From Verrucomicrobiota bacterium (GTDB taxonomy: Bacteria; Pseudomonadota; Gammaproteobacteria; Nevskiales; Nevskiaceae), in the NCBI GenBank assembly GCA_903970595.1, contig CAJCJI010000352.1:1-37868 (forward strand): a DNA stretch of 37,868 bases, written 5' to 3'. The notes beneath the pieces are model-generated. The model did not search any database and was not told where the DNA came from. It worked only from the letters and a program-made list of their open reading frames with translations. A program made the translations under genes and the position numbers. Shown one piece after another: positions 8,424 through 37,868 of this stretch. How positions within the stretch are numbered: position 1 is the stretch's first letter; each line of letters opens with the position of its first letter.

Positions 8424-9248
8424 TCAAGACACGATACGTCGCATGGCGCTGAAGGCGCGTTGCTGAATTTGCCGGATTCTCTCTCCAGATAGTTTGTAGT
8501 TTTTTGAGATTTCCCTAAAGCCTGCTTTCTTGCCCATGCTTAGCCATCGGCGCTCGATTACATCACGCGATCGCTCATCAAGCATGGCCAATGCCGTTTT
8601 CAGGCGGTGCATTCGCCGCTGGTTCCAGTTTAGCTCTTCGATTGCTGCGACGTCGTCGTTTCCATCGGCAAGATTGGCACACAAGAAATAATGTCGATGG
8701 ACAATTAGCCTCGCTGAACTCAAAGAAAGGTCGTCCCCCCGTAAACGATCTTCCAGGTGCTGAATGTCCATGACCCGGACCCCAAGGGAACTGGATATTG
8801 CTCTTATCTCATCCGCGGATAATGGTTCCCGGCTCAGCCTGAAGTGTTGCATTCGCATAAACAGGTGCAACTGTTCCTTGGTAATCCCAGTCGTGGCGAT
8901 GCACCAATTGTCCAGCACAAATCTACAGATCTCCAGATTGATCTGGCGAATGGCGGACGAAATGAGCCGATTGCCGCGTTCGGGCTTGAACTGTCTCACA
9001 GCTTTGACCAAGCCGATATTCCCTTCCTGAATAAGGTCAGGAAAGGGCTGTTCGTACTTCAAGTAGCCGCGAGCGATATTCACAACATAACGCAAGTGAG
9101 ACGATATCAGCAGTTCCTCGATATTTGGCTCGTGCGAGGCATGCAGACGCGCGAAAAGGCGCCATTCCTCCTCCTTGCCGATCCGGGGGAATCGCTCGAC
9201 GGCCTGGATGTACAAGTCAAGACGGCTTTGCACGATGCCTGCAATCAA
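8424..9248 (-). CDS. RpoH-like sigma-70 family factor, divergent
   Basis: A 274-residue group 3 sigma factor, close in length to RpoH. Region 2 is clear (SSHLRYVVNIARGYLKYEQP, DLIQEGNIGLVKAVRQFKPE), and region 4 has LDERSRDVIERRWLSMG and the helix-turn-helix FREISKNYKLSGERIRQIQQ. Between them the RpoH-typical FSTYATWWI-like and QRKLFFNLR segments are altered (here LISSAIRQINLEI and EQLHLFMRMQHFR), so promoter specificity may differ from heat-shock RpoH. It lies 40 bp after the initiating sugar-transferase gene on the same strand and is probably co-transcribed with it. The start is uncertain (TTG 9248 or GTG 9233). A role in transcription of the exopolysaccharide locus is inferred only from position. 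Confidence 0.82.
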   Translation of the reverse strand: MIAGIVQSRLDLYIQAVERFPRIGKEEEWRLFARLHASHEPNIEELLISSHLRYVVNIARGYLKYEQPFPDLIQEGNIGLVKAVRQFKPERGNRLISSAIRQINLEICRFVLDNWCIATTGITKEQLHLFMRMQHFRLSREPLSADEIRAISSSLGVRVMDIQHLEDRLRGDDLSLSSARLIVHRHYFLCANLADGNDDVAAIEELNWNQRRMHRLKTALAMLDERSRDVIERRWLSMGKKAGFREISKNYKLSGERIRQIQQRAFSAMRRIVS

Positions 9249-9288: not shown

Positions 9289-10827
9289 TCAGCGCGCATT
9301 GGTGCCTCGAACGACCACCCAGAACGTCATGGCCAGAATCCAGAGATCCAGCGTCAACGACCAGTTCTCGACGTAGTAAAGATCGAATTCGATGCGGCTG
9401 CACAACTGCTGGACGGTGTCCGTGGCACCGCGCAAGCCCTTGACTTGCGACAAGCCCGTCATGCCGGGCTTCATGCGATGCCGGTGCGGGTAGGTATCGA
9501 TGATTTCATGACAAAGAAGTTGCTCGGTGCGCATGTCGACTGCGTGCGGCCGTGGTCCGACCAGCGACATTTCACCCCTCAGCACATTAAATAACTGGGG
9601 CAGTTCGTCGAGGCTCGATCCGCGCAGGAAGCGGCCGACCCTGGTGATCCGATCGTCATTGCGGCCGGTTTGTCGCAGCGCCTGTTGTGCGGAGCCTGGA
9701 TTCCAGCGCATGGTCCGGAATTTGTAGACGTCAAACTCAATGTTGTTGGAGGTATGCCGCCGCTGCTTGAAGAGCACCGGGCCCGGGCTGTCGATCCGGA
9801 TCGCCAGAGCAATGAGTGCCAATATCGGAAGCGCCAACACGGTGATGATGCCGCACAAGATGAAGTCTTCGACGGCTTTGATCACGGCGTTCCAGCGTTT
9901 CAGCGGGCGATCGGCGAGCAAGGTGACCGGCAAACCGTCACAGACATAGTTGATGGTGCCGCAAGGAACGCTGAGGCCGATATTCTGCGGACACAAGCCT
10001 ACCGATACCGCCAGGCTCTTCAGGCTGTGCACCAGGGGAAGCAGCCGCTTTTCCGCGGTGCTGGGCAGCGTGATCAGCACCCAATCTATTCTGCGTGCTT
10101 TGCCGAGCTCTATCAGATCGGAGATCGTACCGATTGGTCCAGACGACTGCTTTTCGGTACGGCCGACAAGGTCATCAAATATACCCAATAACTCGACGCC
10201 GCCGGCCCGGGTCTGCCGCAGGTGTGCGATCAGCCGGTCCGCTACCGGGCCGGCGCCGACAACCGCAATGGTTTCTCTCAGAATGCCTCGATTCTGCAAT
10301 ACCCGGAAATTGACGGCCAGGGCAGCCCGGCCGATCATGGTCAAGGCAAAAGCCGTCACGATCCAGATTCCGACGACAGATCGTGGCAAGCTGTCCAGAG
10401 ACCGGGTTGCAAAACCCATCGCAAGAATGACGCCGGCAAATCTTGCAAAGCGCATAACGAAACGACGCAACATTTGAGCGGGCTGTCCGCCGATCCCGGA
10501 TTTAAAATCACGATCCCGCAACGCAAATGGCGCGAGTATCGAGACGATCAAGGCGTCTTTTCGATACTCGTTCCAGAAATCCAGGTCGTAGCTCGTTGAT
10601 CCAATCAGGTGAATATAGATCAGCATGCCCAGATATGCGGCGGCGGCCGAGCTTAAAAAATCAAACAGGGGAAGAAGATCTCCGACCAGGGAAACCAGAT
10701 CGTTGCTGAGCCTGATCCTGCTTGGGCGACTGCTGCCCTCCAAAGTCTCTGTATAAAACGTCATATTGCGCCGCCCTGAATGCCGAAACCTGATAGCTGA
10801 CATTGCTGCCGGACGCGGCTTGGCCAT
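9289..10827 (-). CDS. Undecaprenyl-phosphate glucose phosphotransferase (WcaJ/GumD/EpsB type)
   Basis: Membrane enzyme that starts the repeat unit by moving a hexose-1-phosphate, probably glucose-1-P, to undecaprenyl phosphate. About 512 residues: N-terminal transmembrane helices (residues ~35-130), a Rossmann-like CoA-binding-type domain (ETIAVVGAGPVADRLIAHLR), and a further membrane-associated helix. The C-terminal bacterial sugar transferase domain contains PVLFKQRRH, FDVYKFRTMR, GRFLRGSSLDELPQLFNVL and GEMSLVGPRP. Several starts are possible: TTG 10830, ATG 10827 and ATG 10764; the last begins just before the first conserved stretch. Three tandem GTRCG-N4-CGYAC repeats stand about 120 bp upstream. 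The sigma-factor gene follows at 40 bp. Confidence 0.93.
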   Translation of the reverse strand: MAKPRPAAMSAIRFRHSGRRNMTFYTETLEGSSRPSRIRLSNDLVSLVGDLLPLFDFLSSAAAAYLGMLIYIHLIGSTSYDLDFWNEYRKDALIVSILAPFALRDRDFKSGIGGQPAQMLRRFVMRFARFAGVILAMGFATRSLDSLPRSVVGIWIVTAFALTMIGRAALAVNFRVLQNRGILRETIAVVGAGPVADRLIAHLRQTRAGGVELLGIFDDLVGRTEKQSSGPIGTISDLIELGKARRIDWVLITLPSTAEKRLLPLVHSLKSLAVSVGLCPQNIGLSVPCGTINYVCDGLPVTLLADRPLKRWNAVIKAVEDFILCGIITVLALPILALIALAIRIDSPGPVLFKQRRHTSNNIEFDVYKFRTMRWNPGSAQQALRQTGRNDDRITRVGRFLRGSSLDELPQLFNVLRGEMSLVGPRPHAVDMRTEQLLCHEIIDTYPHRHRMKPGMTGLSQVKGLRGATDTVQQLCSRIEFDLYYVENWSLTLDLWILAMTFWVVVRGTNAR

Positions 10828-10945
10828 CAAGATGATTGTGCGGCCGCCGTGAGCGCAGCTGTTCGGAATGCCGGCTGCTCGCCGGTGTTCCTACTGAGAC
10901 CTCTCAGATGGATGGCACACTAATATTCGGGGTCTTTGAGCGTCT

Positions 10946-10993
10946 GTACGAGGACGTACTCTGTGCGAGGACGTACTCTGTGCGGCGACGTAC
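10946..10993. promoter_or_regulatory. Triple operator array, 17-bp period, upstream of the initiating transferase
   Basis: Three inverted repeats stand head to tail at exactly 17-bp spacing: GTACG-AGGA-CGTAC (10946-10959), GTGCG-AGGA-CGTAC (10963-10976) and GTGCG-GCGA-CGTAC (10980-10993). The first two units are identical as a 17-bp direct repeat. They lie in the 262-bp gap between the sugar-transferase start and the end of the EpsL gene, upstream of the former. An operator function is inferred. Confidence 0.65.
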
Positions 10994-11089: not shown

Positions 11090-12394
11090 TCATTTCACAT
11101 TCGCCGCATCGCCGAGGCTGATGCGTACATCGATGCCGAAGATCGCGGCATTGAAACCATCGATGGCGATGTTGGCCTGACGATCTTCATAGCTCGCGAA
11201 CGGTGAGACCCTCAGCCATTGCAGCGCCTGGTAAGTCAGCTTGAGCGTGCTCAGTTGATCCACTTCACGGAGGTTGGAATTGACAGATCCGGTCGCGCCG
11301 CCGCTTTCATACTTGCTGTCCGTCAAGCTGTAGTTTGCGCTCACCGTGATCTTGAGGGTTGGCAGCCAGTTCGCGCCAACGCTGAATCCGGAGCCAACCA
11401 CGGCGCCTGTACCAGCCAGTGCCCCGGCACCGGCTACTGCCCCGGAACTGGAACCTGAACCGGCGATTCCGCTGTTGATGGTGCGGAACAGCTGCAGGTT
11501 TACCGCCGTCTTTTCGCTGAGCTTGCGCATATAGCTCAGGGAGCCGTTGTACCCGGAGATGCTGCCCGAGCCGATGGTCTGGTCATTGCGCTCGGTATAT
11601 CCGAACTCGGCTTTGACATTCGAAAGGCCGCTGATGACATAAGTCGAGGTCAGATCGAGCGTCGCCTGGTTGTAGTCGTGCGGACCTGCAATACCCAGAT
11701 AGTTGCCGCGCAGGTACTGCCCATACAAGCCCGCGCTGAATGGCTCGATATTGAGGTACCTCACAGCCAGATAAACGGAGTTCTCGCTCGAACCGAATCC
11801 GGCAACGCCCGGGATCGGCGAATCAAGTTCATGATTCTTGATGCCGCCCTGAACCAGCCACTCCGGCGTCACCATCAGATTGACCCTGGCTCCGGCGGCG
11901 CGATCGAGTTGCAGTTCCAGTTGTGGAGCAGAGAGCGCCGCAAAAGGTGTCATGCTCCGTTCCTGCCGGATGTCGACCGCCCCATCCAGATCGTCGCTCA
12001 AGGCCCAGTCCAGTCCTCCGTCGACCAGGTACTCGTAATGATCGAGTTGGCTGAAGTGCAGATAGTCGAAGCGGCGGCCCTCCACCGCTCCATGCAGGTT
12101 CTGCTGGTTGATCTGATAGTTAGCGTTCACTCCGCCCAGGAAACGTTGAACGAAGTCGTCGCGCCGCGACGAGCCGGTATCGAGCAGGGCCTGAGCGGGG
12201 CTGGGCAGGTCCAGCACATTCGAGTCGTATTCTGTCTGTGCGGCAACATAGGGGACGATCTGCGCTTGCGCCCCCACAACCATCGGGCACAAGGACAGGG
12301 TGTAGACATAGCGCAGAAAAATACGCCAGGAGTTGATGGGACGCTGCCGGCGCCTGGCGTTGCCGCCGGTGCCGTACGTTCGATGTTTATCCAA
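11090..12394 (-). CDS. EpsL-like outer-membrane beta-barrel of the exopolysaccharide locus
   Basis: A 434-residue secreted protein. An Arg-rich n-region and hydrophobic segment (IFLRYVYTLSLCPMVVGAQAQ) form a signal peptide, followed by IVPYVAAQTEYDSNVLDLP and many amphipathic beta-strands typical of the EpsL / outer-membrane beta-barrel group found in Eps-type loci; the last strand ends AAIFGIDVRISLGDAANVK. It probably helps polymer cross or leave the outer membrane. The TTG start at 12394 is supported by GAAGGGG five bases upstream. Near residues 280-315 there is a low-complexity Gly/Ala/Ser insertion (GAVAGAGALAGTGAVVGSG) that should be a surface loop. Its upstream region holds an exact GTGCG-N4-CGTAC site and a degenerate triple array. 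No exosortase gene is visible here. Confidence 0.75.
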   Translation of the reverse strand: MDKHRTYGTGGNARRRQRPINSWRIFLRYVYTLSLCPMVVGAQAQIVPYVAAQTEYDSNVLDLPSPAQALLDTGSSRRDDFVQRFLGGVNANYQINQQNLHGAVEGRRFDYLHFSQLDHYEYLVDGGLDWALSDDLDGAVDIRQERSMTPFAALSAPQLELQLDRAAGARVNLMVTPEWLVQGGIKNHELDSPIPGVAGFGSSENSVYLAVRYLNIEPFSAGLYGQYLRGNYLGIAGPHDYNQATLDLTSTYVISGLSNVKAEFGYTERNDQTIGSGSISGYNGSLSYMRKLSEKTAVNLQLFRTINSGIAGSGSSSGAVAGAGALAGTGAVVGSGFSVGANWLPTLKITVSANYSLTDSKYESGGATGSVNSNLREVDQLSTLKLTYQALQWLRVSPFASYEDRQANIAIDGFNAAIFGIDVRISLGDAANVK

Positions 12395-12491: not shown

Positions 12492-12505
12492 GTGCGATAG
12501 CGTAC
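12492..12505. promoter_or_regulatory. Single GTRCG-N4-CGYAC site upstream of EpsL
   Basis: GTGCG-ATAG-CGTAC is an exact match to the repeat found in the arrays at 10946 and 18618. It lies 98 bp upstream of the EpsL start in the divergent gap that also serves the membrane-protein gene at 12795. Confidence 0.55.
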
Positions 12506-12642: not shown

Positions 12643-12690
12643 GTACGGCACCGAACAGGGTTAGGTACCGAACAGGGTTAGGCAACGAAC
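12643..12690. repeat. Degenerate triple 17-bp repeat
   Basis: Three units at exactly 17-bp spacing: GTACG-GCAC-CGAAC (12643), GTTAG-GTAC-CGAAC (12660) and GTTAG-GCAA-CGAAC (12677). ACCGAACAGGGTTAGG is repeated exactly at 12650-12665 and 12667-12682. The period and half-site layout match the two clean arrays, but the half-sites are altered (CGAAC, GTTAG), so this is either a decayed array or one for a related protein. The remainder of the 400-bp gap 12395-12794 holds the site at 12492 and nothing else I can name. Confidence 0.5.
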
Positions 12691-16994: not shown

Positions 16995-18413
16995 TTAGCG
17001 TATTGATGTAGTTCGGTCGCCAAACATTGCGACCTCCTCCGCTGGATCGCGCAGATGTCGAAGCTGCAGACCGTTCTTTAGCCTTGCAAGAAGGCCACGG
17101 TCTTCCCACCGCAAGCCAAGGCCATCTTGCAACAGGCCGGGCTCCTCCCAGGGAATATCGTGGTATACGGAATGTAACGCCTTGCTGGTTGAACTGCGAC
17201 GCCATTCCCCGGGAAACATCGCGATCACTTCGGCGTCGGCCAGGGAATCACGGGAAGCAACCGCGGACCCTGTCAATTGAGAGCAGAGAGCCGCCGGCAA
17301 ATCACATCCGATGCCCAGAGCAAGGTGACAAATCGGCGTGGCGCGCGGATTGACCTCGATCAGCCACGCGGCGCGGTTTGCGGAGTCGAGAACAAAGTCG
17401 AATCCCCATAGTCCGGACAATCCCAGGCGCCTTACCAGCCGGGCCGCGGTATCCGACATCTCCGTGTGCTCGATGATCCGTACGACGGTTGCCGGTCCGG
17501 TCGGATGTTGCGTACTCAAGGCTTCGACGCTGATTCCCGCAAGGATCCTTCCGCGCCAACAGGCAACCGCGCGATTGGCCGGTATGCCGTTGACGTGATC
17601 CTGAGCCGTAACCGAGCGTCGCGGGTGTTTGAGCCAGCGCAGCATCTGCGACGAATCCCGATCCAAAGCCGTGCGTATAACTGCTTTCAGCAGAGGCGGG
17701 CGCACCGACATGATATTGAATGCGCGCCGTGCCTCGTCCTTGTTCCGCGCAATATATACCCCCAGTCCGCCCCATGTGTTGTCTATCTTGAGTACCGTCG
17801 GATAATCATGCCGTCCCGACCATACGTCCAGGTCGGCCTCCGATAAGAGGGTTTGCGTGGCCGGGGTCCGCACCCCCTCCCGTAAAGCAAGGCCGCCCAT
17901 TTCGGCCCGTACCGTGGAGAGCCGACAGGCCGATGGAGTACCCAGAGAACGCTCAATAAGGTGCGCATACCCTTGCGCTACGGCGCCAGCCTGGACTCGT
18001 TCATAAAGCAGATTCAGATGTAACGCGGCATCGTCATCGCACGGAATAATCAGGTCGGGGCTTGCCGCTTTGATCGCGGCATTCAGCGAACCCAAGGGGT
18101 TCAGAACGCCGTAGTGATAAAGCGCCGGGCATTCGCGCAACCGGGCTACGGGGTGCTCCTTTGGACAGAGCGCATCGACGTGACAGCCGAGCCTCCTGAA
18201 GGCCATGGCCAATCGCGCGGCGACAGGCCATCTGAGTGTCGCAGTAAGAAGAATACGCGGAGTTTCGATGCGCTTCGCTGCGGCCGCCTGAATAATTCGG
18301 GCCGGAGTATACGTCAGCGCCCGGTGGTCGTCCGCTCGCAGGTAGGGCGCTTCCCGCATCAGAAGGCAATCCGCGACGTCTGCGGTTGTATGGTTGCCAG
18401 CAGCCGGCATCCG
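16995..18413 (-). CDS. ATP-grasp domain ligase
   Basis: ATP-grasp enzymes join a carboxylate to an amine or other nucleophile through an acyl phosphate. Visible are an N-terminal Rossmann-like domain (RILLTATLRWPVAARLAMAF, CPKEHPVARL, LIIPCDDDAALHL), the ATP-binding lysine region (YPTVLKIDNTWGGLGVYI) and the metal/phosphate site with GFDFVLDSANRAAWLIEVNPRAT. The C-terminal ~120 residues are unassigned. The layout resembles carbamoyl-phosphate-synthase-like or D-Ala-D-Ala-ligase-like peptide-forming ATP-grasp enzymes; the substrate cannot be read from sequence. The start is ambiguous: GTG 18542, ATG 18413 or ATG 18359; homology-like sequence starts only after 18359. It is divergent from the WecG-type gene, with a triple operator between them. 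Confidence 0.8.
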   Translation of the reverse strand, partial: RMPAAGNHTTADVADCLLMREAPYLRADDHRALTYTPARIIQAAAAKRIETPRILLTATLRWPVAARLAMAFRRLGCHVDALCPKEHPVARLRECPALYHYGVLNPLGSLNAAIKAASPDLIIPCDDDAALHLNLLYERVQAGAVAQGYAHLIERSLGTPSACRLSTVRAEMGGLALREGVRTPATQTLLSEADLDVWSGRHDYPTVLKIDNTWGGLGVYIARNKDEARRAFNIMSVRPPLLKAVIRTALDRDSSQMLRWLKHPRRSVTAQDHVNGIPANRAVACWRGRILAGISVEALSTQHPTGPATVVRIIEHTEMSDTAARLVRRLGLSGLWGFDFVLDSANRAAWLIEVNPRATPICHLALGIGCDLPAALCSQLTGSAVASRDSLADAEVIAMFPGEWRRSSTSKALHSVYHDIPWEEPGLLQDGLGLRWEDRGLLARLKNGLQLRHLRDPAEEVAMFGDRTTSIR

Positions 18414-18617
18414 CGCTGTAGCGACGATGTTTTGAGCGAAAGAAAGGCCTGACGTGGCGCGCAGGCGCAGGCCCCGTCGGTCTGATACCGCACAGTGGAT
18501 GGCGCGAGCGGCGTCAAATCCAACATCAAGCGCAGAGTCCACGATCGCATTGGCCTGTTATCTCCCGCTCATCTCCTTGAGGTCGCCTCAGGGTGGTCCC
18601 GGCACGTTCCGGAGTCC

Positions 18618-18665
18618 GTGCGTAGGCGCACTCAGTACGTAGTCGTACTGAGTGCGCACACGCAC
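18618..18665. promoter_or_regulatory. Triple operator array, 17-bp period, between ATP-grasp and WecG-type genes
   Basis: Three inverted repeats at exactly 17-bp spacing: GTGCG-TAGG-CGCAC (18618-18631), GTACG-TAGT-CGTAC (18635-18648) and GTGCG-CACA-CGCAC (18652-18665). The outer two are perfect GTGCG/CGCAC dyads and the middle one a perfect GTACG/CGTAC dyad, so the whole 48-bp block is nearly self-complementary about 18641. It sits in a divergent promoter region. Function as an operator is inferred from symmetry, period and recurrence. Confidence 0.7.
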
Positions 18666-18803
18666 AGAACCGCGAAGTCACGATGCTTAAGGTGAGTACC
18701 TCGCGGCCACGTCTGCAATCGCTAATGTCTTTGATGTGCGATGCCCGGCTCGGCCGCTAACCACAGCGCCATCTCATTGGAAGGCCGGCAGGCGGAGACG
18801 CGG

Positions 18804-19592
18804 ATGCTTACATCTACTGTTCAGATCGACGATTATGACGTGGCGGAATTTACGGATGTCGCAGCGGTTTTTGGACAGAACCGCTATAGCTTCGTGGTCA
18901 CCCCGAACGCGGATCATATGATACGGCTCGATGAGGATGTCTCGTTCCGCAAGATCTATGCAGACGCCGGGTTCGTACTCTTTGACAGCCGCTTTCTCTC
19001 GCATATTCTGCGCTTCACCCGCGGACTGCGCATCCCGGTGTGCACCGGGAGCGATCTTACGGCAAGACTGTTCTCCCAGGTGATTGCGCCCGACGATCCC
19101 ATCGTACTGATCGGGTGCAACGACAAGCAGGCCGCACAGCTTGTTGAAACCTACGGCCTGCAGCGGCTGGCCCATTTCAATCCGCCCATGGGGTTCATAA
19201 ATGATGCGTCCCAGGTGGAGGCGGTTCTTGATTTTGTAGAGGCCCATAGTCCCTTCCGTTTTTGTTTCCTCGCCGTCGGAGCCCCGCAGCAGGAGCTTCT
19301 GGCGCAGCAGCTGAAGGCACGTAATGTGGCGCGCGGCCTGGCATTGTGCGTTGGCGCCTCGATCAATTTTCTTACAGGGGCGGAACAGCGCGCGCCCAAG
19401 TGGATGCAAGGGATGGGTATGGAATGGATGTACCGGCTGGTCCAGGCTCCCGGTCTCATGGCCAAGCGCTACCTGATCCGCTGTCCGCGCATTTTCAAAC
19501 TGCTGCGGCATACGGCGATTGCGCTTCGCCCGGCTTTATATGAGCATGCCGTAAGTTTGCACGATGGCACTCAGCTTGAAACAGCATTGTAG
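18804..19592 (+). CDS. WecG/TagA/CpsF family glycosyltransferase (GumM-like)
   Basis: GT26 enzyme that adds a sugar to the lipid-linked repeat unit at the cytoplasmic face. Diagnostic stretches are VVTPNADHMIRLDEDVSFRK, GFVLFDSRFLSHILR, the PVCTGSDLTARLF segment, FCFLAVGAPQQELLA and LALCVGASINFLTGAEQRAP followed by WMQGMGMEWMYRLVQAP. The ATG at 18804 is chosen because GGAG lies nine bases upstream; an earlier ATG at 18741 would add 21 residues that look unrelated to the family. Length of about 262 residues is normal. It is followed 54 bp later by wzx. Confidence 0.92.
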   Translation: MLTSTVQIDDYDVAEFTDVAAVFGQNRYSFVVTPNADHMIRLDEDVSFRKIYADAGFVLFDSRFLSHILRFTRGLRIPVCTGSDLTARLFSQVIAPDDPIVLIGCNDKQAAQLVETYGLQRLAHFNPPMGFINDASQVEAVLDFVEAHSPFRFCFLAVGAPQQELLAQQLKARNVARGLALCVGASINFLTGAEQRAPKWMQGMGMEWMYRLVQAPGLMAKRYLIRCPRIFKLLRHTAIALRPALYEHAVSLHDGTQLETAL

Positions 19593-21233: not shown

Positions 21234-24200
21234 TTAACGGCCTGCTCTGGGCATTGGAGTATCGGCGCCGTGATCCAGAGCGGCCGATATCGTTGCCGCC
21301 ATCTGCGACACCCCGGGGTCCTGGAACATTATGAAGTGGTCACCGCCGACCACGGTGAGCTCAAGGCCGCCGACGGCATATTCACCCCATCCCATCTCGG
21401 CATCCAGGAAGCGCCCGCTAGGCTCATCTGCGCTCCGGAACAGCAAGATCCGTCCCGGGTATTGTTTCGGTTGATAGCGGCGTGCAGCTTCATCCAGATA
21501 GTTGAGCAACCACTGATCGTAGACCTCCGGAGAGGAAACCTTGCCCTGAATCAATCGGGTAGGCTCCGCAATCACGCTGTTACGAGTGAACAGCTTCAGC
21601 AGCCTCTTGACAATCATCCGATTGCCGATAAATGCACCTAAACTCTGCTGTCGCGAGTGTACCCTGGACCAGTCCAGCACGATCAATTTCCACCTGTAAG
21701 AATAATCCGAAAGCAAGCGTCTTGGCAGACTGAGTCTAGTCAAGTAACCCGGCGCATAGGTATCGACCAACATCAGTTGCGACACCTCCTGCCCTGAGGC
21801 GCAAAGCTGCTGCGCAATCTCGTAGGCAAGCGCCCCGGCAACGCACCAGCCCAGCAGCGCATAGGGCCCGTCGGTTTGTACGCGCCGGATCAACTGAACG
21901 TATCTCGTAGCGATCTCTTCAAAGCTCGAGGGCAAAGACTCCGCCGAAAGAGCGGGGTCGAACAATTGAAGTGTTGTGAACGGCCGATCAGGACCGAGAC
22001 GTTTGGACAAGGTGTAATAAATACCGGTATTGTTTATTGCGATCAGCGGCTGCTTGGCACCGCTGGCCTGCAAGCGCACCACCTGGCGAAAATCGTATTT
22101 TCGCGTGTCGCTGCCTTCGAGCAGGCCGGCTTGCTCCGCCAGGGTAGGCACCTGGAACAGGGTGGCGAGGCTGAAGTGCTGTCCGAACTCGGCGTCGATA
22201 CGGGCCAACAGCCTTATCGCGAGGAGGGAATGGCCTCCCATTTCAAAGAAGTTGGCGTGCTTGTCGACGACCGCCAAACCCAGAACCGCGTTCCAGAGCG
22301 CCGCCACGCGTTTCTCCACGGCGCTGAATGGCGCGAATTCCGGCTTTTTGTGCGAGGCGGTCGACACGGCAGCTGGCAGCGCGCGCCGGTCCGTCTTGCC
22401 GCTGGGCGTCTTGGGCATGGCATCGAGCAAAGTGATGAATGCCGGGCACATAAACGCCGGGAGCACTCCGGCCATGCTGCTCCGCAGGCTGCGGATCAAG
22501 GCTTCCGCATGTTGTGCATGATCGCGCCGCGGCACAACGTATGCGCTTAACGCCGCCTCACCATTGGCGCCCTCGGCCAGAATCACCACCGCTTCGGAGA
22601 CTTCCGGCTGCCGGATCAGCACGGCCTCGATCTCGGCCGGTTCGATGCGGAAACCGCGCAGCTTGATCTGGTGATCGATGCGGCCGAGAATCTGAACGTC
22701 GCCGTTGGAACACCAGCGCGCGAGGTCCCCTGTCAGATAGATGCGGCCTGCGGCAAATCGGTTGGAGGTGAACTTTTCTGCGGTGAGCTGCGGCTTGTTG
22801 TGGTAGCAGCGCGCTACACCGTCACCGCCGATATAGAGCAGACCAGGTACGCCGGCCGGTACCGGCTCGCCTTTGCCGTCGAGGATGTAAAACCGCGTAT
22901 TGGCGATCGGGCGACCCACCGTGATCGTTTCGTCGCCGCTGAGCATCTTGCCACAGGACGACCAAATCGTCGTTTCCGTTGGGCCATACATGTTCCACAA
23001 CTCGCCGGCGCCCTCGAGCAGGCGATTTGCCAGTTCACGCGGCAGGCTCTCGCCGCCAATCATCATCTTGAAGCCCGGTCTGGAGCGAAAGCCCGCTTCC
23101 AGCAGCAGGCGCCAGCTCGCAGGCGTGCCCTGCATCACGGTAACGCGGCGCTGTTCGATCAATTGCAGGAGTCTGGCGCCATCGACCACATCCGCTTCCG
23201 TTGCCAACACCAGCCTGGCGCCAACGACCAATGGCAAAAATAGTTCCAGCGCAGCGATGTCGAATGAGATCGTTGTCACCGCAAGCAGAACATCATGTTG
23301 CTCAAGGCCTGGACGAGCCGCCATCGCGTAAAGGAGATTGACCACCGATCGATGCGTGATTTCCACACCCTTGGGCAGCCCCGTGGACCCGGAGGTGTAG
23401 ATGACATAGGCCAGGTCGTCGGGCGTTGAAGGAGCGCCCGGGGCATCCACCTCTTCCGGGGCGGCACTCGTTGCGCCGCCCTCTAATTGAATAACCGGCA
23501 CCCCTTCCAAGGGCAGCGCGGACTCCGGAATGCGATCGGTAATCAGTGCCCCGAGGCCGGCATCCTTCAGGATGTGGCTCAGACGTTCTGCGGGATGTGC
23601 CGGATCGAGCGGTACGTAAGCCAAGCCGGCTTTGAGCACCGACACCAGGGCCACGACCAGTTCCATCGAGCGGTTCAACAATATGCCGACACAACGACCG
23701 CGCTCAAGTCCCTGGCGCCGCAGTCTTAGCGCGAGCTGGTTGGCGGCGAGGTCGAGCTCGCTGAAGGTCATTGTCCTGTCGCCGCAGGCCACGGCGATTG
23801 CATCGGGCGTGCGCGCCGCCTGGGCTTCCAGCAATTGCGACACTGTCAGGTGCCGCGGATACAGGGTATCGGTATGGTTCCAATCGAAAAGAGCGGTGCG
23901 GCGTTCCGCATCGTCAAGCATCGGCAGCGCTGAAATCCGGCAATCTTCATCGATCGTCGCGCCGTGCAATAAAAACCGGAAATGCTTGAGCAGTTGGGCG
24001 ATGGTGTTCGGCTGATATAAACCGGAGTCGTATTCGCAGGACAGGTGCCAGCCATCCCGGCGCTGCAAGACACTCAGGTTGAGATCGTACATCCCGCCTG
24101 CCGGCACCGATGGCATGCCTGTCGAACGCACACCGCCGTAGACCCCATCCTCGACGAAGGATCGTCGCACCGTATAAGTCACGGAAAGCAGGGGAGTTCT

Positions 24201-25352
24201 GCTGCGGTCCCGGTCCGGGCGCAGCATCTCGACGAGCTTCCCCGGCGGCATATCCGGATGCGCGAGCGCGTCTGTGACCCTATCGCGTACCCGGATCAAG
24301 AGTTCTGCAAACGATGGGTCTTCGGACAGGTCGCCTCGCAGCACCAGCATATTGGTGAACAAGCCGATAACATGCTCAAGCTCAATGCGATTGCGGCCGG
24401 CAACCGGTGTCCCGATGCAGATGTCCGTCTCGCCGGTGTACCGATGCAGCAAGACCAGGAAGGCGGCGAGGGTGGTCATGTACATAGTGCAGCCAAAGCG
24501 GCCGCCGAGGTCAGCGAGCCCGTCGATCAGGCTCCGATCCAGCAGCAAGGACTGGAAGTTTCGGTTGCTGGCCAGAACCGGCGGTGTGATCTTGTCGGGT
24601 GGAAAATCGAAATGTGTGGCCCCTCGCAAGGTATCGTTCCAAAACGCCTTGTCCGATCCTCGTGAAGTGCTGCCGATCGCCGTGGACTGCCACTCGCCGA
24701 AGTCGGCGTAGCCTGGCGGCAAGGCGGGCAAGTCCGGGAGGCGGCCTGACTGCAGTGCGTCATAGATCTCTCCCATTTCCCGTGCGAGTATGCCGATCGA
24801 CCAGCCGTCGCAGACCATCCGATGCGCCGTGAGCAACAGGACAAAGCTGTCTTCGGCCAGATGCAGGCAGGTCGCGCGGATGAAAGGGGGCCCCGACCGC
24901 AGATGGAAGGGAGCACGTGCCTCAAGTTGTGCAATGCGTTCGGCTTCGATGCCTGCCCGAAGCTCGAGCAATGGGGCGAGTTCCACCAGCCGGATGCGAA
25001 ACGGTACGTGCGGCTCAACAATCTGAACGGGCTCGCCTTCGATCTCCGTAAAGGATGTACGCAGAATCCCGTGCCGCGCGATGATCAGCTGAAGGGATTT
25101 CTCAAGATCGGGAACCGATAGTGCGCCTTCCAGCCGCCAGCGCACTGCCAGGCGCAGAGAAGGACTCAAGGGTTCCAACTGGTCCAGCACCCAGAGGCGC
25201 TGCTGCCCGGCGGAGCAGGGATAGTGCCGCCGGCTGTTCCGCTCCGCCGAGCTTACGCGGTCTGCTGCCGGAGCTTGTGCGGCATTGTCGGGAAATCCCA
25301 ATGATCCGCCGCGGGCCTGATTCCGATCGTTCTTCGTGAAGGCAGGCTGCAT
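21234..25352 (-). CDS. Single-module NRPS: condensation, adenylation, carrier, thioesterase
   Basis: A 1372-residue peptide synthetase. The C domain (~44-480) has the DFGEWQ and IGLFTNMLVLRGDL motifs, but the HHxxxDG motif reads HRMVCDG, with Arg178 in place of the catalytic second His. The A domain (~495-990) has YTSGSTGLPKG, YGPTETTIWSS, YLTGDLARW, GRIDHQIKLRGFRIEPAEIE and PSGKTDRRAL. By eye its specificity code is D-I-L-Q-M-G-M-I-W-K, similar to glycine-type codes I remember. The PCP has EMGGHSLL with Ser1042. The thioesterase (~1095-1350) has GWCVAG with Cys1170 where Ser is usual, then VDTYAPG and GGDHF for Asp and His. AAAGGG stands eight bases before the ATG. It runs against the flanking polysaccharide genes and shares a divergent promoter region with the OPX gene. 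Confidence 0.93.
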   Translation of the reverse strand: MQPAFTKNDRNQARGGSLGFPDNAAQAPAADRVSSAERNSRRHYPCSAGQQRLWVLDQLEPLSPSLRLAVRWRLEGALSVPDLEKSLQLIIARHGILRTSFTEIEGEPVQIVEPHVPFRIRLVELAPLLELRAGIEAERIAQLEARAPFHLRSGPPFIRATCLHLAEDSFVLLLTAHRMVCDGWSIGILAREMGEIYDALQSGRLPDLPALPPGYADFGEWQSTAIGSTSRGSDKAFWNDTLRGATHFDFPPDKITPPVLASNRNFQSLLLDRSLIDGLADLGGRFGCTMYMTTLAAFLVLLHRYTGETDICIGTPVAGRNRIELEHVIGLFTNMLVLRGDLSEDPSFAELLIRVRDRVTDALAHPDMPPGKLVEMLRPDRDRSRTPLLSVTYTVRRSFVEDGVYGGVRSTGMPSVPAGGMYDLNLSVLQRRDGWHLSCEYDSGLYQPNTIAQLLKHFRFLLHGATIDEDCRISALPMLDDAERRTALFDWNHTDTLYPRHLTVSQLLEAQAARTPDAIAVACGDRTMTFSELDLAANQLALRLRRQGLERGRCVGILLNRSMELVVALVSVLKAGLAYVPLDPAHPAERLSHILKDAGLGALITDRIPESALPLEGVPVIQLEGGATSAAPEEVDAPGAPSTPDDLAYVIYTSGSTGLPKGVEITHRSVVNLLYAMAARPGLEQHDVLLAVTTISFDIAALELFLPLVVGARLVLATEADVVDGARLLQLIEQRRVTVMQGTPASWRLLLEAGFRSRPGFKMMIGGESLPRELANRLLEGAGELWNMYGPTETTIWSSCGKMLSGDETITVGRPIANTRFYILDGKGEPVPAGVPGLLYIGGDGVARCYHNKPQLTAEKFTSNRFAAGRIYLTGDLARWCSNGDVQILGRIDHQIKLRGFRIEPAEIEAVLIRQPEVSEAVVILAEGANGEAALSAYVVPRRDHAQHAEALIRSLRSSMAGVLPAFMCPAFITLLDAMPKTPSGKTDRRALPAAVSTASHKKPEFAPFSAVEKRVAALWNAVLGLAVVDKHANFFEMGGHSLLAIRLLARIDAEFGQHFSLATLFQVPTLAEQAGLLEGSDTRKYDFRQVVRLQASGAKQPLIAINNTGIYYTLSKRLGPDRPFTTLQLFDPALSAESLPSSFEEIATRYVQLIRRVQTDGPYALLGWCVAGALAYEIAQQLCASGQEVSQLMLVDTYAPGYLTRLSLPRRLLSDYSYRWKLIVLDWSRVHSRQQSLGAFIGNRMIVKRLLKLFTRNSVIAEPTRLIQGKVSSPEVYDQWLLNYLDEAARRYQPKQYPGRILLFRSADEPSGRFLDAEMGWGEYAVGGLELTVVGGDHFIMFQDPGVSQMAATISAALDHGADTPMPRAGR

Positions 25353-25488: not shown

Positions 25489-25502
25489 GTACGTCATCGT
25501 AC
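25489..25502. promoter_or_regulatory. Single GTRCG-N4-CGYAC site between NRPS and OPX genes
   Basis: GTACG-TCAT-CGTAC is a perfect dyad, extended by one base on each side (TGTACG / CGTACA). It lies 137 bp upstream of the NRPS start and 133 bp upstream of the OPX start, almost exactly in the middle of the divergent gap. It matches the middle unit of the array at 18635. Confidence 0.55.
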
Positions 25503-25547: not shown

Positions 25548-25634
25548 GACCGGAATGTGTGCGATATCGAACAGACGCGTGGTCCGACCACCTTCGACAA
25601 TCTATTCCACAAGTGAATCTGGGATGAAGCAACC

Positions 25635-26600
25635 GTGCCCAATGGCGCCTATCACGCGATTACCTCCGGCACGACCCAGGCAGCACGGTCGCGAAAATCG
25701 CAGCTCCGGTTCTTCGAATGGGCCGCTTGCCGGGCTCTGTTGTTTGCGGCGGCACTTGGCGCCGGCTGCTTCGAGCCCGTGGCCGACGCTCAAAGCGCCA
25801 GCCTGAAACTCGATGATGCAATCGCCAGCGCCAGCCAAATCGCCAGTGCTGCGCCGCCAAAAGCTGAGCCGGGAGCGGCGCTGACACTGGGACCGGGGGA
25901 TGTGGTGGCAGTTCAGGTTTACGGCCGTCCGGAACTGAGTTCCACCATCTACATCGGCGACGACGGCACCATCCGGATGCCGCTTGCAGGAGCCGTCAAC
26001 GTCTCCGGGCTGTCTCCGGCGCAGGCCTCGCAGCGAGTTGCCGAGGCTCTCAAGGAAGGCAATTTTCTGGTCAATCCCCAGGTTTCGATCATTCTTTCCC
26101 AGTTCCGCAGCCAGCAGGTCTCGGTGCTTGGCGACGTGCGTGCGCCCGCCCGCTTTCCAATCGAATCGCGCACCACGGTTCTGGATCTGCTCGCCCTGGC
26201 GGGCGGGGTCAATGAAAGCGGAGGGAATGTTGTTTACCTGATCCGTCCGGACAACAGCGGACACGTCACCCGCTATCCAATTGATTTGAAGGGGCTGAGC
26301 GACAGCAAGAGCGCAATTCCCACGCTGACGCTGCGCGGAGGCGACACGGTGTTCGTGCCGCGCGCGGAGCAATTCTATATTTACGGTGAAGTGACCACGC
26401 CCAACATGTATCGCATCGAACCCGGCATGACCGTGCTGCAGGCCATGGCCAGAGGCGGGGGAGTGACTCCGCGCGGGAGCGAAAATCGCGTGGAAATCAA
26501 GCGACGCCTCGCGAACGATCGCTATGTGACGATCACCCCTCAATTGACGGATCCGGTAATGCCGAACGATGTGATTCGCGTCAAACAGCGAATCTTCTGA
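25635..26600 (+). CDS. Polysaccharide export outer-membrane protein (OPX, Wza/GumB/EpsE type)
   Basis: Secreted protein that forms the periplasmic and outer-membrane channel for the polymer. An N-terminal hydrophobic segment (ALLFAAALGAGCFEPVADAQ) is a signal peptide; GAGC could be a poor lipobox. The Poly_export domain spans ~85-165 (LGPGDVVAVQVYGRPELSS, YIGDDGTIRMPLAGAVNVSG). Two SLBB-type domains follow (VSVLGDVRAPARFPIESRTT, FYIYGEVTTPNMYRIEPGMT). The 321-residue length fits short OPX proteins. The GTG start at 25635 is the only good in-frame choice. It begins the plus-strand operon that continues through the Wzz, kinase, Wzy and transferase genes; its stop overlaps the next ATG by one base. 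Confidence 0.93.
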   Translation: MPNGAYHAITSGTTQAARSRKSQLRFFEWAACRALLFAAALGAGCFEPVADAQSASLKLDDAIASASQIASAAPPKAEPGAALTLGPGDVVAVQVYGRPELSSTIYIGDDGTIRMPLAGAVNVSGLSPAQASQRVAEALKEGNFLVNPQVSIILSQFRSQQVSVLGDVRAPARFPIESRTTVLDLLALAGGVNESGGNVVYLIRPDNSGHVTRYPIDLKGLSDSKSAIPTLTLRGGDTVFVPRAEQFYIYGEVTTPNMYRIEPGMTVLQAMARGGGVTPRGSENRVEIKRRLANDRYVTITPQLTDPVMPNDVIRVKQRIF

Positions 26601-28039
26601 TGCCCAGATCGAATTTGCCCGCGCTGCCCGCAACGATGTCCCTGCCCATCACGGCATCGATCATTCCACAGCATTTTGTTCATCCCGGCCTGTCGCTGAG
26701 CCAGATCATGGCGATTTTGTGGGCCCATAGGAAGGCGACGCTCTACATCGCCGCGGCCATCACGGTATTTGTAGCCTGCGTCGTCTGGGTAATGCCTAAA
26801 ACGTTCTCGGCGACGGCCACCCTGATGGTCGACTATGAAGTCAATGATCCGCTCGGCGGCAAGGAATTTCCGATTGGGCTATTGGGCACCTATATGTCCA
26901 CGCAGATCGAACTGATGCGCAGCGATGAGGTGCTGATGCCGGTCGTCGACCAGCTCAAGCTCACCGATAACAAAAACTATACCAAGGGCTTCAGCGACGA
27001 GCCCGGCCGCTTGCGCCAATGGGTAGCAAAGGCGATCAGCAAGAAGCTGCTGATCGAGCAGGGGCAATATGGCAGCCAGCTCATCTACATCAGCTTTTCC
27101 GCCAACAATCCAGCGGATGCCGCGCTGATCGCCAACACCGTGGCGGAAATCTATATGCAGCAGCAGTATCAACGCCTGACGGGTCCGGCCAGCGAGCGTT
27201 CCAAGCGTTACCTGGCGCAACTCGAAGAGCTCAAGCAGAGCGTCAGCCGTGCCCAGGATCAAGTCACCGGCTTTCGCCAGCGAACCGGCCTGATCGACGT
27301 GGATGCAAAATCCGATACCGACATGGAGCGCCTGTCGTCGCTGCAGCAACAACTGGTCGAGGCGCAGAGCGTCCGCCGCAATGCGGAGGCGCGGGCGTCC
27401 CAGAACCAGTCCGTTGGACAGCAGGTGCTTTCGTCCAGCCTGATCCAGACGCTGAAGGCGCAACTTGCCCTTGAGACGGCGAACCTGGCGCAGCTGAAGG
27501 CCACGCTGGGTTCGGCGCACCCTCAAATTATCGAACTTCGCTCCCAGATCGAAGCAACGCGTGCTTCGCTTGCGGCGGAGGTCGGCAGCTATTCCAGCGG
27601 TGCGTCGTCCGACCTCAATTCGACCCGGCAGATGGAAAGCGAATTACAGCAGGCGGTCGACGATCAACGCGCCAAGGTTCTGAACGTCCAAAAAATCAGG
27701 GACGAGGGCGCCAGGTATCAGCTCGATCTTCAGTCCGCGCAGTCTGTATACAAACAGGCCCTGGATGGCTATGACCAGTTCGTCGTAGCCTCCAGCGGCC
27801 ACTATACCAATACAAGCTTCGTCAGCCGCGCGGATCCGCCGCTGAGAGCCTCCAAGCCGAAAGTGCTGGTCGACCTGTTGGCTGGAGCCTTGGCCGGGAT
27901 GATGCTGGGGCTGCTCGGGCCTCTCGGCTACGACCTTCTGAATCGGCGCGTGCGCTGCCGGGACGACGTGGAGCGCGACCACAATGTGCCGGTTCTGGTG
28001 GAATTCGGCATTTCACCGATGCAGCGGACGACATCATGA
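26600..28039 (+). CDS. Chain-length determinant / polysaccharide co-polymerase (Wzz/GumC/EpsF type)
   Basis: Inner-membrane protein that sets polymer length and links Wzy to the exporter. Of 479 residues, the first transmembrane helix is at ~46-66 (ATLYIAAAITVFVACVVWVM), then the Wzz domain (FSATATLMVDYEVNDPLGG), a long predicted coiled coil at ~200-390 and the second helix near 420-440 (VDLLAGALAGMMLGLLGPLG), preceded by the Pro-containing ADPPLRASKPK typical of these proteins. It overlaps the OPX stop by one base and the next gene by four, so translation is coupled. It lacks a fused kinase domain; that function is in the next gene. Confidence 0.93.
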   Translation: MPRSNLPALPATMSLPITASIIPQHFVHPGLSLSQIMAILWAHRKATLYIAAAITVFVACVVWVMPKTFSATATLMVDYEVNDPLGGKEFPIGLLGTYMSTQIELMRSDEVLMPVVDQLKLTDNKNYTKGFSDEPGRLRQWVAKAISKKLLIEQGQYGSQLIYISFSANNPADAALIANTVAEIYMQQQYQRLTGPASERSKRYLAQLEELKQSVSRAQDQVTGFRQRTGLIDVDAKSDTDMERLSSLQQQLVEAQSVRRNAEARASQNQSVGQQVLSSSLIQTLKAQLALETANLAQLKATLGSAHPQIIELRSQIEATRASLAAEVGSYSSGASSDLNSTRQMESELQQAVDDQRAKVLNVQKIRDEGARYQLDLQSAQSVYKQALDGYDQFVVASSGHYTNTSFVSRADPPLRASKPKVLVDLLAGALAGMMLGLLGPLGYDLLNRRVRCRDDVERDHNVPVLVEFGISPMQRTTS

Positions 28040-28899
28040 ATGCGCAGCTGGACAGCGCCCTTCTGAAGGACAGCGGCGCCATATTGAAGGCCGCGCTGAT
28101 TCGACGCTGCGCCCTATCCGACGAGGCAGTGACACGGATCACCGATGCCGAACACAGCCTGGGCGTGAGCTTCAGCGATGCGGCCTTGTTCGTCGGGCTG
28201 GCGACGCAGGAGGACGTGGCTGCGGTCCGCGGAGTCGAACACCGACTGGTGGTGATACAACGCAAGCGCGTCAGGCCGGACAATTGCCTGACCTTGATCC
28301 GCGATCCGTTCGATGCGCACAGCGAAACCGTGCGGTCCTTGCGCACCGAGCTGCTGTTGCGGCGCGATGCTCCCGGACAGGCGGATGTGATGGTGGTGAT
28401 GAGCCCCTGCGCCGGCGAGGGGCGCTCGCATCTCGCCGCAGAACTTGCCATTGCGTTCTCCCAGCTTGGTCAACAGACCCTACTGGTCGATGCCGATCTG
28501 CGTCATCCCTATCAGCACGTCTTGTTTGGTTCGGAGAATAATGAAGGCTTGTCCGATGCCATCGCCCGCGACGTCGCGCCTTACTTCCATCCAGTGGAGG
28601 GCTTGCCGCATCTGTCGCTGCTTACATCGGGACCCATACCTTCGAATCCGCTCGAACTTCTCTGCGACAGCCGCTTTGAAAAAATGATCGAGGAATGGCG
28701 CCATTCCTTCGCCTACGTGATCTTCGATACCGCTCCGGTTGAGAAATACTCGGACGCACTGGCCGTGGCCACGCTGGTCGGCAGAGTGCTTGCTTTGTGC
28801 CGTGCCCAGCATACGCCTTACGCGGAGACGCGGAGTATGTTGCGCCGCCTCGCCGCTACGCAGTCGCGCATCCTCGGTGCCGTGGTCAATCACTTCTAA
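28036..28899 (+). CDS. BY-kinase-like ATPase of chain-length control (EpsG type)
   Basis: Cytoplasmic partner of the Wzz protein. The 287-residue sequence has a small N-terminal helical domain resembling MshEN-like modules (ALSDEAVTRITDAEHSLGVS, ALFVGLATQEDVAAVRG). The P-loop ATPase domain follows: Walker A reads SPCAGEGRSHLAAELA, with Arg where most BY-kinases have Lys; Walker A' is LLVDADLRHP; the Walker B-like segment is YVIFDTAPVEKYSDALA. The protein ends VVNHF without the usual C-terminal tyrosine cluster. I recall GEGRS as common in EpsG-type proteins, so this may be normal for the subfamily. Whether it autophosphorylates is open. ATGA overlap with the Wzz gene. Confidence 0.88.
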   Translation: MNAQLDSALLKDSGAILKAALIRRCALSDEAVTRITDAEHSLGVSFSDAALFVGLATQEDVAAVRGVEHRLVVIQRKRVRPDNCLTLIRDPFDAHSETVRSLRTELLLRRDAPGQADVMVVMSPCAGEGRSHLAAELAIAFSQLGQQTLLVDADLRHPYQHVLFGSENNEGLSDAIARDVAPYFHPVEGLPHLSLLTSGPIPSNPLELLCDSRFEKMIEEWRHSFAYVIFDTAPVEKYSDALAVATLVGRVLALCRAQHTPYAETRSMLRRLAATQSRILGAVVNHF

Positions 28900-35319: not shown

Positions 35320-36045
35320 ATGTTTGCACCGGATCAGAACCGTCTTCTTGCAACGCTGCCGCCGCTCGACCAGGAGCGTCTCTTTTCGCAGCTGCAGCTT
35401 GTGCAGCTGTTGTCGGGTACGGCGCTCTATGAGTCCGGGAATGAGTTGCGACATGCTTATTTTCCGGTTAGTTCCACAGTGTCGATGATCTACGTAATGG
35501 AAGACGGCTCCTACACGGAAATAGCCCTGGTGGGCCGTGAAGGCATGATAGGACATTCCTTGTTCATGGGTGGCACCACTGTTTCGCACCGGGCGATGGT
35601 AACCAGTGGCGGCTACGCCTACCGGATGAAGGACAGCCTGATCCGGCACGAATTCAGGCATTCGGTGCCGATGCAACAGGTCCTGCTGTCCTATACGCAA
35701 GCCCTGCTCACGCAGATGGCCCAAAGCGCCGTATGCAATCGCCACCATTCGCTGGATCAGCAATTGTGCCGCTGGCTGCTGATGAGCCTGGATCGACACA
35801 CGTCCAACATTCTTTTGACGACGCAGGAAATGATCTCCAATATGCTTGGCGTGCGCCGCGAAGGCGTAACCGAGTCGGCGGGAAAGCTGCAGGCGGCGGG
35901 CGTCATCAGCTATAGACGCGGACAAATCACAGTGCTGGACCGGGTTGGTCTGGAGCAAAAATGCTGCGAGTGTTACCGCGTCGTGCGCAACGAATTCGAT
36001 CGCCTGTTGCCGGAGCCTTCCCACAGGCGACTGTCGGCGGCATAG
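35320..36045 (+). CDS. Crp/Fnr family transcriptional regulator (paralogue 1)
   Basis: A 241-residue protein with an N-terminal cupin-like effector domain (LYESGNELRHAYFPVSSTVS, YTEIALVGREGMIGHSLFMG), a long dimerisation helix (VLLSYTQALLTQMAQSAVCN) and a C-terminal winged helix-turn-helix (LTTQEMISNMLGVRREGVTESAGKLQAAGVISYRRG). The canonical cAMP-binding residues of E. coli Crp (GELGL...R-S) are not seen, so the effector is unknown. It ends with a KCCECY segment shared, as SCECY, with the paralogue at 36759. It follows the polysaccharide operon by 158 bp and is a candidate regulator of it. Confidence 0.88.
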   Translation: MFAPDQNRLLATLPPLDQERLFSQLQLVQLLSGTALYESGNELRHAYFPVSSTVSMIYVMEDGSYTEIALVGREGMIGHSLFMGGTTVSHRAMVTSGGYAYRMKDSLIRHEFRHSVPMQQVLLSYTQALLTQMAQSAVCNRHHSLDQQLCRWLLMSLDRHTSNILLTTQEMISNMLGVRREGVTESAGKLQAAGVISYRRGQITVLDRVGLEQKCCECYRVVRNEFDRLLPEPSHRRLSAA

Positions 36046-36758: not shown

Positions 36759-37469
36759 CTATCTCGTTATCATTTCGGGGAGCAGGCGGTCATATTCCCT
36801 CTTCACTACGATATAGCATTCACAGGACTTGTCCTCCAATCCCGGACGGTCGAGTACCGCAATTTTGCCGCGACTGTAGCTGATGAGCCCCGCCGTCTGT
36901 AGTTTGCCGGCGGCTTCCGTGATGCCCTCGCGGCGGACGCCGATAATATTGGCGATCTGTCCATGGGTCATGGTGATGTGACAGCCGACCAGGCGATCCA
37001 GGCTCAGCAGCAGCCACCGGCATAGCTGCTGCTCCACCTCGTGATATCGGTTGCAGACTGCCGTTTGGGACGTCTGCGTCAGCAAGGCCTGGGCATAACG
37101 CAGCAGGAGATCCTGGATGGGACCAGACTTGCGGAATTCATCCTTCAATACCTGCGCTTTCAGCCGGTAGGCGTAACCTTCACTTCTTACCACGGCCTGG
37201 CTCGGCGTCGTCCCGCCCCCCATGAACAGGTAAATGCCGATCATGCCTTCATTGCCCACCACGGCAAATTCGGTCGTGGCGCCGCTGTCCATGACGTAGA
37301 GCAGCGAGACGATACAGTCGATCGGAAAGTAAGCGTGTTCCAGGGTGGCGCCCGACTCGTACAGCACCGAGCCCACCTCCATTGGTACGCGTTCGAGATG
37401 GGGCCTCAAGCGTTCGCATTCGACCGTAGTCAGGACATTCAACAGACCGTTTTGCATGAAATGTTCCAT
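36759..37469 (-). CDS. Crp/Fnr family transcriptional regulator (paralogue 2)
   Basis: About 236 residues, clearly related along its whole length to the regulator at 35320: LYESGATLEHAYFPIDCIVS, FAVVGNEGMIGIYLFMGGGT, LLLRYAQALLTQTSQTAVCN, and the helix-turn-helix MTHGQIANIIGVRREGITEAAGKLQTAGLISYSRG. The recognition helix (RREGITEAAGKL) is nearly the same as that of paralogue 1 (RREGVTESAGKL), so the two may share a target site. As in paralogue 1, the Crp cAMP-binding residues are missing. ATG 37469 is chosen as it matches the start of the other protein; 37574 would add 35 unrelated residues. Confidence 0.87.
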   Translation of the reverse strand: MEHFMQNGLLNVLTTVECERLRPHLERVPMEVGSVLYESGATLEHAYFPIDCIVSLLYVMDSGATTEFAVVGNEGMIGIYLFMGGGTTPSQAVVRSEGYAYRLKAQVLKDEFRKSGPIQDLLLRYAQALLTQTSQTAVCNRYHEVEQQLCRWLLLSLDRLVGCHITMTHGQIANIIGVRREGITEAAGKLQTAGLISYSRGKIAVLDRPGLEDKSCECYIVVKREYDRLLPEMITR

Positions 37470-37868
37470 AGGCGATAGTGTCAGACGCAATGCCGTGGAT
37501 GTGTTGCCGGCGTGATGACTGACAGGCGGGGAGTGGCCCGATCCTGTAGAACATAGGGTATGAGGTGCGGGCATTCAGTGCGCCGCCGCACGTTTTCGTT
37601 CGGCCCGTCCGGCCAACAGGGACAGCGGGAATTGGCAGAACATGGCCAAACCCTCGACTGTGGCGTGCTCTCGGCAGACGATAAAGGCGGCGCGTGCCGC
37701 TGCTGCCTATGCCCGGCCGGAATATCCGCCGCAGACCCTCTCCCGCAACCCCTATGTGCGAATGCGTACGGACTGCGCGTGATCCCATCGTTATATTTGC
37801 CCAATGTCGCGTCGTCGCCACCGTCCGCATAGACCTGCCGGCGCTTTGCGGCGATCAAGGAGTCTGTC
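37470..37868. other. Upstream region of the second regulator, no gene seen
   Basis: About 400 bp up to the window end. Frames are open on both strands, but none has recognisable protein sequence. The only notable item is the dyad at 37756. Confidence 0.4.
37756..37769. promoter_or_regulatory. GTRCG-N4-CGYAC site at the window edge
   Basis: GTGCG-AATG-CGTAC is an exact match to the locus operator. It lies 287 bp upstream of the second Crp/Fnr gene and could belong to a gene beyond the window. A half match (CTGCG) is found 17 bp further on. Confidence 0.45.

Follow-up and report, generated by a model that had tools for sequence, protein, structure and literature searches.

A predicted tandem operator of Crp/Fnr-type dyads, phased at 17 bp, in an exopolysaccharide gene cluster of a Nevskia-like bacterium

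The operator of FNR-type regulators is TTGAT-N4-ATCAA and that of CRP is TGTGA-N6-TCACA. The dyads described here, from a window of 37,868 nucleotides (the whole stretch of DNA that was analysed), resemble the FNR operator in being inward 5-4-5 dyads of the kind bound by dimers of the Crp/Fnr fold, a fold that the modelled product of the window gene at 36759-37457 shares, and differ from it in their half-site (GTDCG rather than TTGAT), in the associated recognition helix (RREG(V/I)T) and in their tandem arrangement at 17 bp. Read with its flanks, as TGTGC-GN4C-GCACA, the site has the same 5-6-5 geometry as the CRP operator; the fifth base is C here, E or D is the usual residue where CRP has R185, and the R-E pair in the recognition helix stands in the position of CRP R180-E181. 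Neither the fold nor the geometry of the dyad is new in kind. The surrounding genes resemble Methylobacillus/XrtB-type exopolysaccharide (EPS) clusters in content, as judged by the NCBIfam EpsL, EpsE, EpsF and EpsG models, although the four window proteins fall below the curated cut-offs and no such operator is found near epsE class-wide. Bcam1349/BerA of Burkholderia cenocepacia is described as a c-di-GMP-responsive regulator of the CRP/FNR family that binds EPS-cluster promoters (PMC3584217); the terms 'palindrom', 'consensus' and 'footprint' are absent from the searched text of that source. A full-text literature search (titles and abstract starts) found no description of the GTDCG/RREG-clade assignment or of a 17-bp EPS array, an absence that is weak evidence, as subscription papers lie mostly outside such a search.

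The original prediction for this window comprised three perfect 5-4-5 dyads starting at 18618, 18635 and 18652, which we recovered letter for letter (Table 1); it had missed the arrays at 10946 and 12643 and the single dyads at 12492, 25489, 37578 and 37756. The 48-bp block 18618-18665 also forms one 25-nt inverted repeat (88% complementary, 4-nt loop). Its three dyads all fit the core GTDCG-N4-CGHAC, from which the units at 12643, 12660 and 12677 deviate by 0, 1 and 1 mismatches. Tandem Repeats Finder, which uses no motif, called a period of 17 at 10943-10993 and 12647-12690. All three 17-bp arrays sit between genes of an EpsL/EpsE-type EPS cluster, the content of which includes WcaJ-, EpsL-, WecG-, EpsE-, EpsF- and EpsG-like proteins, a flippase and NRPS-like, Wzy_C and GH5 proteins. 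The window has a single equally spaced triple (14-30 bp) of perfect 5-4-5 dyads, and 300 order-2 Markov sequences have none. Exact GTRCG-N4-CGYAC dyads number 10, against a mean of 0.19 and a maximum of 2 in 300 order-3 Markov sequences and a single match for the reversed pattern. The whole 5.15-Mb assembly contains 49 exact dyads as compared with 37 for the reversed control, so that the exact motif is near background away from the window, and 10 of the 49 fall inside these 38 kb. Pairs at 17 bp with two or fewer mismatches to GTRCG-N4-CGYAC were found nowhere else in the assembly.

Table 1. Positions of the genes, dyads and arrays in the window
Feature	Coordinates	Strand	Remarks
ATP-grasp protein gene	16995..18542	-	divergent from wecG; true start may be internal to ORF
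WecG/TagA/CpsF-family glycosyltransferase gene (wecG)	18741..19592	+	start may be 18804
WcaJ-type sugar-phosphate transferase gene (wcaJ)	9289..10830	-	downstream of array 10946-10993
EpsL-like outer-membrane EPS protein gene (epsL)	11090..12394	-	below NCBIfam cut-off
EpsE-, EpsF-, EpsG-like export, chain-length, tyrosine-kinase genes	25635..28899	+
Crp/Fnr-family regulator gene	36759..37457	-	recognition helix GVRREGITEAA; candidate array-binding protein
Second Crp/Fnr-family regulator gene	35320..36045	+	helix GVRREGVTESA; candidate array-binding protein
Dyad 1 of reported array, GTGCG-TAGG-CGCAC	18618..18631		perfect 5-4-5
Dyad 2 of reported array, GTACG-TAGT-CGTAC	18635..18648		linker TCA before, TGA after
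Dyad 3 of reported array, GTGCG-CACA-CGCAC	18652..18665		perfect 5-4-5
Second array, exact dyads at 10946/10963/10980, 17-bp period	10946..10993		upstream of wcaJ
Third array, degenerate, 12643/12660/12677, 17 bp	12643..12690		between epsL and gene at 12795
Single dyad	12492..12505		26.0 bits against Crp/Fnr-clade consensus (strong); upstream of epsL
Single dyad	25489..25502		25.4 bits (strong); between NRPS-like gene (-) and epsE (+)
Single site GTGCG-ATAT-CGAAC	25559..25572		27.8 bits (strong); same NRPS-like/epsE promoter region as 25489
Dyad upstream of Crp/Fnr gene 36759-37457	37578..37591		134 bp upstream
Dyad upstream of Crp/Fnr gene 36759-37457	37756..37769		at -312

Among the other genes of the cluster, the NRPS-like protein (1372 aa, 21234-25352, minus strand) also has counterparts beside epsE in genomes G014, G017 and G024. 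A sigma-32-like gene (8424-9248, minus strand; RpoH models below cut-off) adjoins wcaJ, with homologues of 39-42% identity in the same region of G011 and G017, and a serine-recombinase-like protein with weak matches is encoded near the cluster edge (5125-6240, minus strand). A scan of 18300-18850 for sigma-70 promoters gave no match, and a plasmid search with the ATP-grasp protein returned two Granulicella records only (34-36% identity).

Indications of the protein that might read the dyad came from 80 loci of Crp/Fnr homologues in diverse proteobacteria (875 kb; 79 usable). An unbiased palindrome search upstream of these homologues placed GTGCG with a gap of 4 first, with perfect dyads in 15 of 79 regions, ahead of TCTGT with a gap of 10 (8 regions) and TGTGC with a gap of 6 (6 regions; identical to the first site but for a one-base shift). 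The 80 loci contain 165 inward gap-4 dyads of the form GTDCG-N4-CGHAC, whereas each of the other gaps and orientations yields 7-22. Of the 165, 57 lie within the 11.4% of bases outside a crude ORF mask. The outward 5-3-5 register CGHAC-N3-GTDCG was considered as the true site and rejected, being unenriched in the 875 kb. Homologues with an RRE helix carry GTDCG-N4-CGHAC upstream in 41 of 72 cases (shuffled mean 0.35, maximum 3) and those with RRS or RRP in 0 of 7 (Fisher p 0.004; L135, with only 45 bp of upstream sequence, was left out); in the window's own genome and its relatives, the dyad accompanies 16 of 31 RREG helices and 2 of 24 others (p 0.001). Where the helix loses its E the site is lost, which fits direct readout and is confounded by phylogeny, since all seven RRS/RRP rows are from Caballeronia, Paraburkholderia, Trinickia or Pandoraea. 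Alignment with 3dv8 pairs the R-E of the helix with R-E. Among 26 homologues at least 57.5% identical, the interval from -200 to -60 holds an exact GTRCG dyad in 8 (shuffled mean 0.03) and an exact or one-mismatch dyad in 15 (0.65), and the corresponding figures for 28 less similar homologues are 1 (0.04) and 8 (0.98); the window's own genes (L022) are left out of both groups. Freely fitted flanks converge on TMT-GTDCG-nTAn-CGHAC-AKA. From these comparisons of sequence we predict that the dyad is the operator of a Crp/Fnr clade with the recognition helix RREG(V/I)T. The relatives' set and the 80-locus set overlap in the genomes of L107, L129, L132 and L183, which were left out of the scoring matrix derived from the regulator promoters.

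In other proteobacterial lineages (L107-L186) GTDCG-N4-CGHAC also occurs near PRC-barrel, BON, Ysc84, DnaJ, cyclopropane-synthase and lytic-transglycolase-like genes (20 proteins scanned out of 72 site-gene rows), which may reflect a regulon for envelope or stress functions there. In three loci (L159, L029, L031) the regulator gene is preceded by a double operator that is, unlike the 17-bp EPS arrays, spaced at 22 bp, or about two helical turns.

Both regulators encoded at the cluster's end match PF13545 (HTH_Crp_2; cut-off 27), with 51.8 bits for the 36759 gene and 50.0 for the 35320 gene; for PF00027 (cNMP_binding; cut-off 27.5) the former passes with 29.3 bits and the latter, at 26.4, is just below. 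The model of the 36759-37457 protein (pLDDT 86.4) has the overall Crp/FNR fold and matches FNR of A. fischeri with Z 19.7 and an rmsd of 2.7 over 213 aligned residues. Because members of the clade stand at the cluster's end, one of them with dyads upstream of its own gene, autoregulation of the 36759-37457 gene appears likely. The window's Crp/Fnr protein has nine matches in its own genome (G000), contig-end fragments included, which amounts to an expansion of paralogues.

We compared ten EPS clusters, namely those of the window, C259 (the second cluster of the own genome), G007, G009, G011, G014, G016, G017, G024 and G141; the labels of the relatives include Nevskia and Hydrocarboniphaga. Upstream of wecG, or of wcaJ-N where that gene leads the operon, an exact dyad is present in five of the ten (the window, G009, G017, G141 and G011, in which it overlaps the aligned start), a dyad with one mismatch in two (G014, G024) and none in three (G007, G016, C259). 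As its counter-case the original prediction named related genomes that keep the gene pair and expression pattern but lack the phased dyads. None of the relatives examined preserves the divergent ATP-grasp/wecG pair in that form, and the dyads gave the divided picture just described. Three clusters (the window, G014 and G024) carry an exact dyad at the epsE/NRPS promoter, and no exact dyad was found upstream of the ATP-grasp homologues in G025, G036 and G445 (46-47%) or in G011, where the gene lies directly 3' of another coding frame. Class-wide, 30 epsE loci revealed no consensus site; the single match (L204, GTTCG-AGCA-CGAAC) lacks the consensus flanks. A general EPS operator was rejected on these grounds, and control of EPS genes by the motif is therefore seen as a local recruitment.

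The 17-bp phase itself recurs outside the family. Exact dyad pairs 0-30 bp apart were found in 6 of 369 genomes of the class, and exact 17-bp pairs in two of them, the own genome and G141, which belongs to another family. The pattern used requires GTGCG as one outer half-site, so that an array whose two outer half-sites are GTACG or GTTCG would have been missed, and its reversed control matched 3 of 369. In G141, one array lies between an ATP-grasp gene (minus strand) and wcaJ (plus strand, ATG at 12401 in L228), and another is upstream of a 654-aa WcaJ-N/WecG fusion, so that the window and G141 have their arrays at the same genes (ATP-grasp, wcaJ, wecG), with two or more arrays per genome. 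In the region 12310-12390 of L228, the G141 array lies between the arms of a perfect inverted repeat of 10 bp (CTCAGAGTCT/AGACTCTGAG). Homologues of the ATP-grasp protein exist in 3 of the 369 genomes; in the third, G077, a single exact dyad is accompanied by a half-site in phase with it. G009 and G014 show degenerate 17-bp pairs ahead of wcaJ-N/wecG, with 2 and 3 mismatches respectively, and no array with one or fewer mismatches was found in 60 relatives. When eleven EPS loci were pooled, pairs with up to two mismatches fell at 17 bp nine times, at 34 bp four times and at each of the other 25 spacings between 14 and 40 bp 0-2 times. The linkers of the six exact 17-bp pairs are TCT, TCT, TCA, TGA, TGA and AGA. 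Transfer of the cluster may have carried the arrays from one lineage to another.

The original prediction was right in outline in treating the block as a phased, putative protein-binding array, and also in stating that neighbouring dyads face different sides of the DNA, 17 bp being equivalent to 223 degrees at 10.5 bp per turn. Its preference for a filament-forming protein over dimers is unsupported as stated, as each dyad has the form of a Crp/Fnr-type dimer operator unit, one that in many proteobacteria stands alone ahead of the gene for the regulator itself; no sign of wrapping or of a filament was seen, though either may occur. We consider it probable that, between the divergent ATP-grasp and wecG genes, the block provides their promoter region with a tandem operator, on which dimers of the RREG(V/I)T clade would assemble cooperatively in controlling EPS genes. 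On the matrix from regulator promoters (median 24.5 bits), the single sites at 12492, 25489 and 25559 score 25-28 bits and would each hold one Crp/Fnr dimer; the array sites reach at most 17.6 (10980), followed by 12.6 (18652), 12.4 (18618) and 11.4 (10963), with 10946 and 18635 below 11. Array sites lack the preferred central TA and TMT/AKA flanks. The central TA is present in none of the 10 array units of the window and G141, and its T stands in 68% of single sites; single sites have three conserved flank bases on each side, and sites of about 20 bp overlap at a spacing of 17. This sharing of flank bases, together with the missing TA, makes the array sites weaker by the matrix. Because each of them is weak on its own and neighbouring sites would use the 3-bp linkers jointly for their outer contacts, Crp/Fnr dimers may load cooperatively on alternating faces of the DNA, and the recurrence of the phase in a second family, at the corresponding EPS genes, makes a multi-dimer assembly plausible. 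Such an array might constitute a steep switch for the ATP-grasp gene and for wcaJ and wecG, the genes for committing sugar to the lipid carrier and for its extension; the paralogue bound, its cooperativity, activation or repression and the signal are points that we infer. The fuller proposal, that Crp/Fnr dimers on 17-bp arrays of weak operators form a helical cooperative oligomer on alternating faces, an arrangement kept at the promoters of wcaJ, wecG and the ATP-grasp gene in EPS clusters, is offered tentatively, as a possibility short of an expectation. To our knowledge, a switch of this architecture has not been described for the Crp/Fnr family.

The low matrix scores and the missing TA also leave room for another paralogue, or another protein, as the reader of the arrays, which is the main rival to cooperative Crp/Fnr loading: the arrays would belong to another DNA-binding protein or to a diverged Crp/Fnr paralogue sharing GTRCG, and Crp/Fnr dimers would occupy single sites only. 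Except in the degenerate array at 12643, the array units also have GTRCG, never GTTCG, as their half-site, with W-S-W linkers common to them. The half-site, the 4-bp gap and the EPS cluster are nevertheless all the same, and the outward 5-3-5 register, with 13 occurrences in 875 kb, is as infrequent as other gaps; on balance we regard a separate reader as unlikely. Less probable still is that the phase reflects chance or neutral slippage, a tandem duplication of one operator having left a 17-bp period without function. Units 1 and 2 are identical at 16 of 17 positions in the 10946 array and 13 of 17 in the 18618 array, as duplication would give, and only a minority of genomes have arrays, but the dyad positions are exact although the spacers differ, and arrays at the same genes, at least two in each genome, are shared by the window and G141. 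That the block acts as RNA, its long hairpin serving for termination, attenuation or processing, is very improbable and was rejected, for although the strand folds into a single long hairpin (z about -7.7 as RNA), the block lies between divergent genes, the terminator scan found no GC-rich hairpin with a T tract at the array, and the 10946 array and both G141 arrays do not form that hairpin, the isolated dyads being the conserved unit.

The reading as a tandem operator of the RREG(V/I)T clade, which we prefer to these alternatives, is of interest in several respects. An operator is assigned, at the level of prediction, to a large Crp/Fnr group for which we found no described site, and residues of the recognition helix are linked to it. 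The arrays would represent an unusual instance of Crp/Fnr-type sites that keep a constant 17-bp phase at corresponding genes of two families, one in which spacing, affinity and cooperativity might be separated from one another. If the reading is true, the initiation of EPS synthesis in Nevskia-like bacteria would be under the control of an RREG Crp/Fnr regulator.
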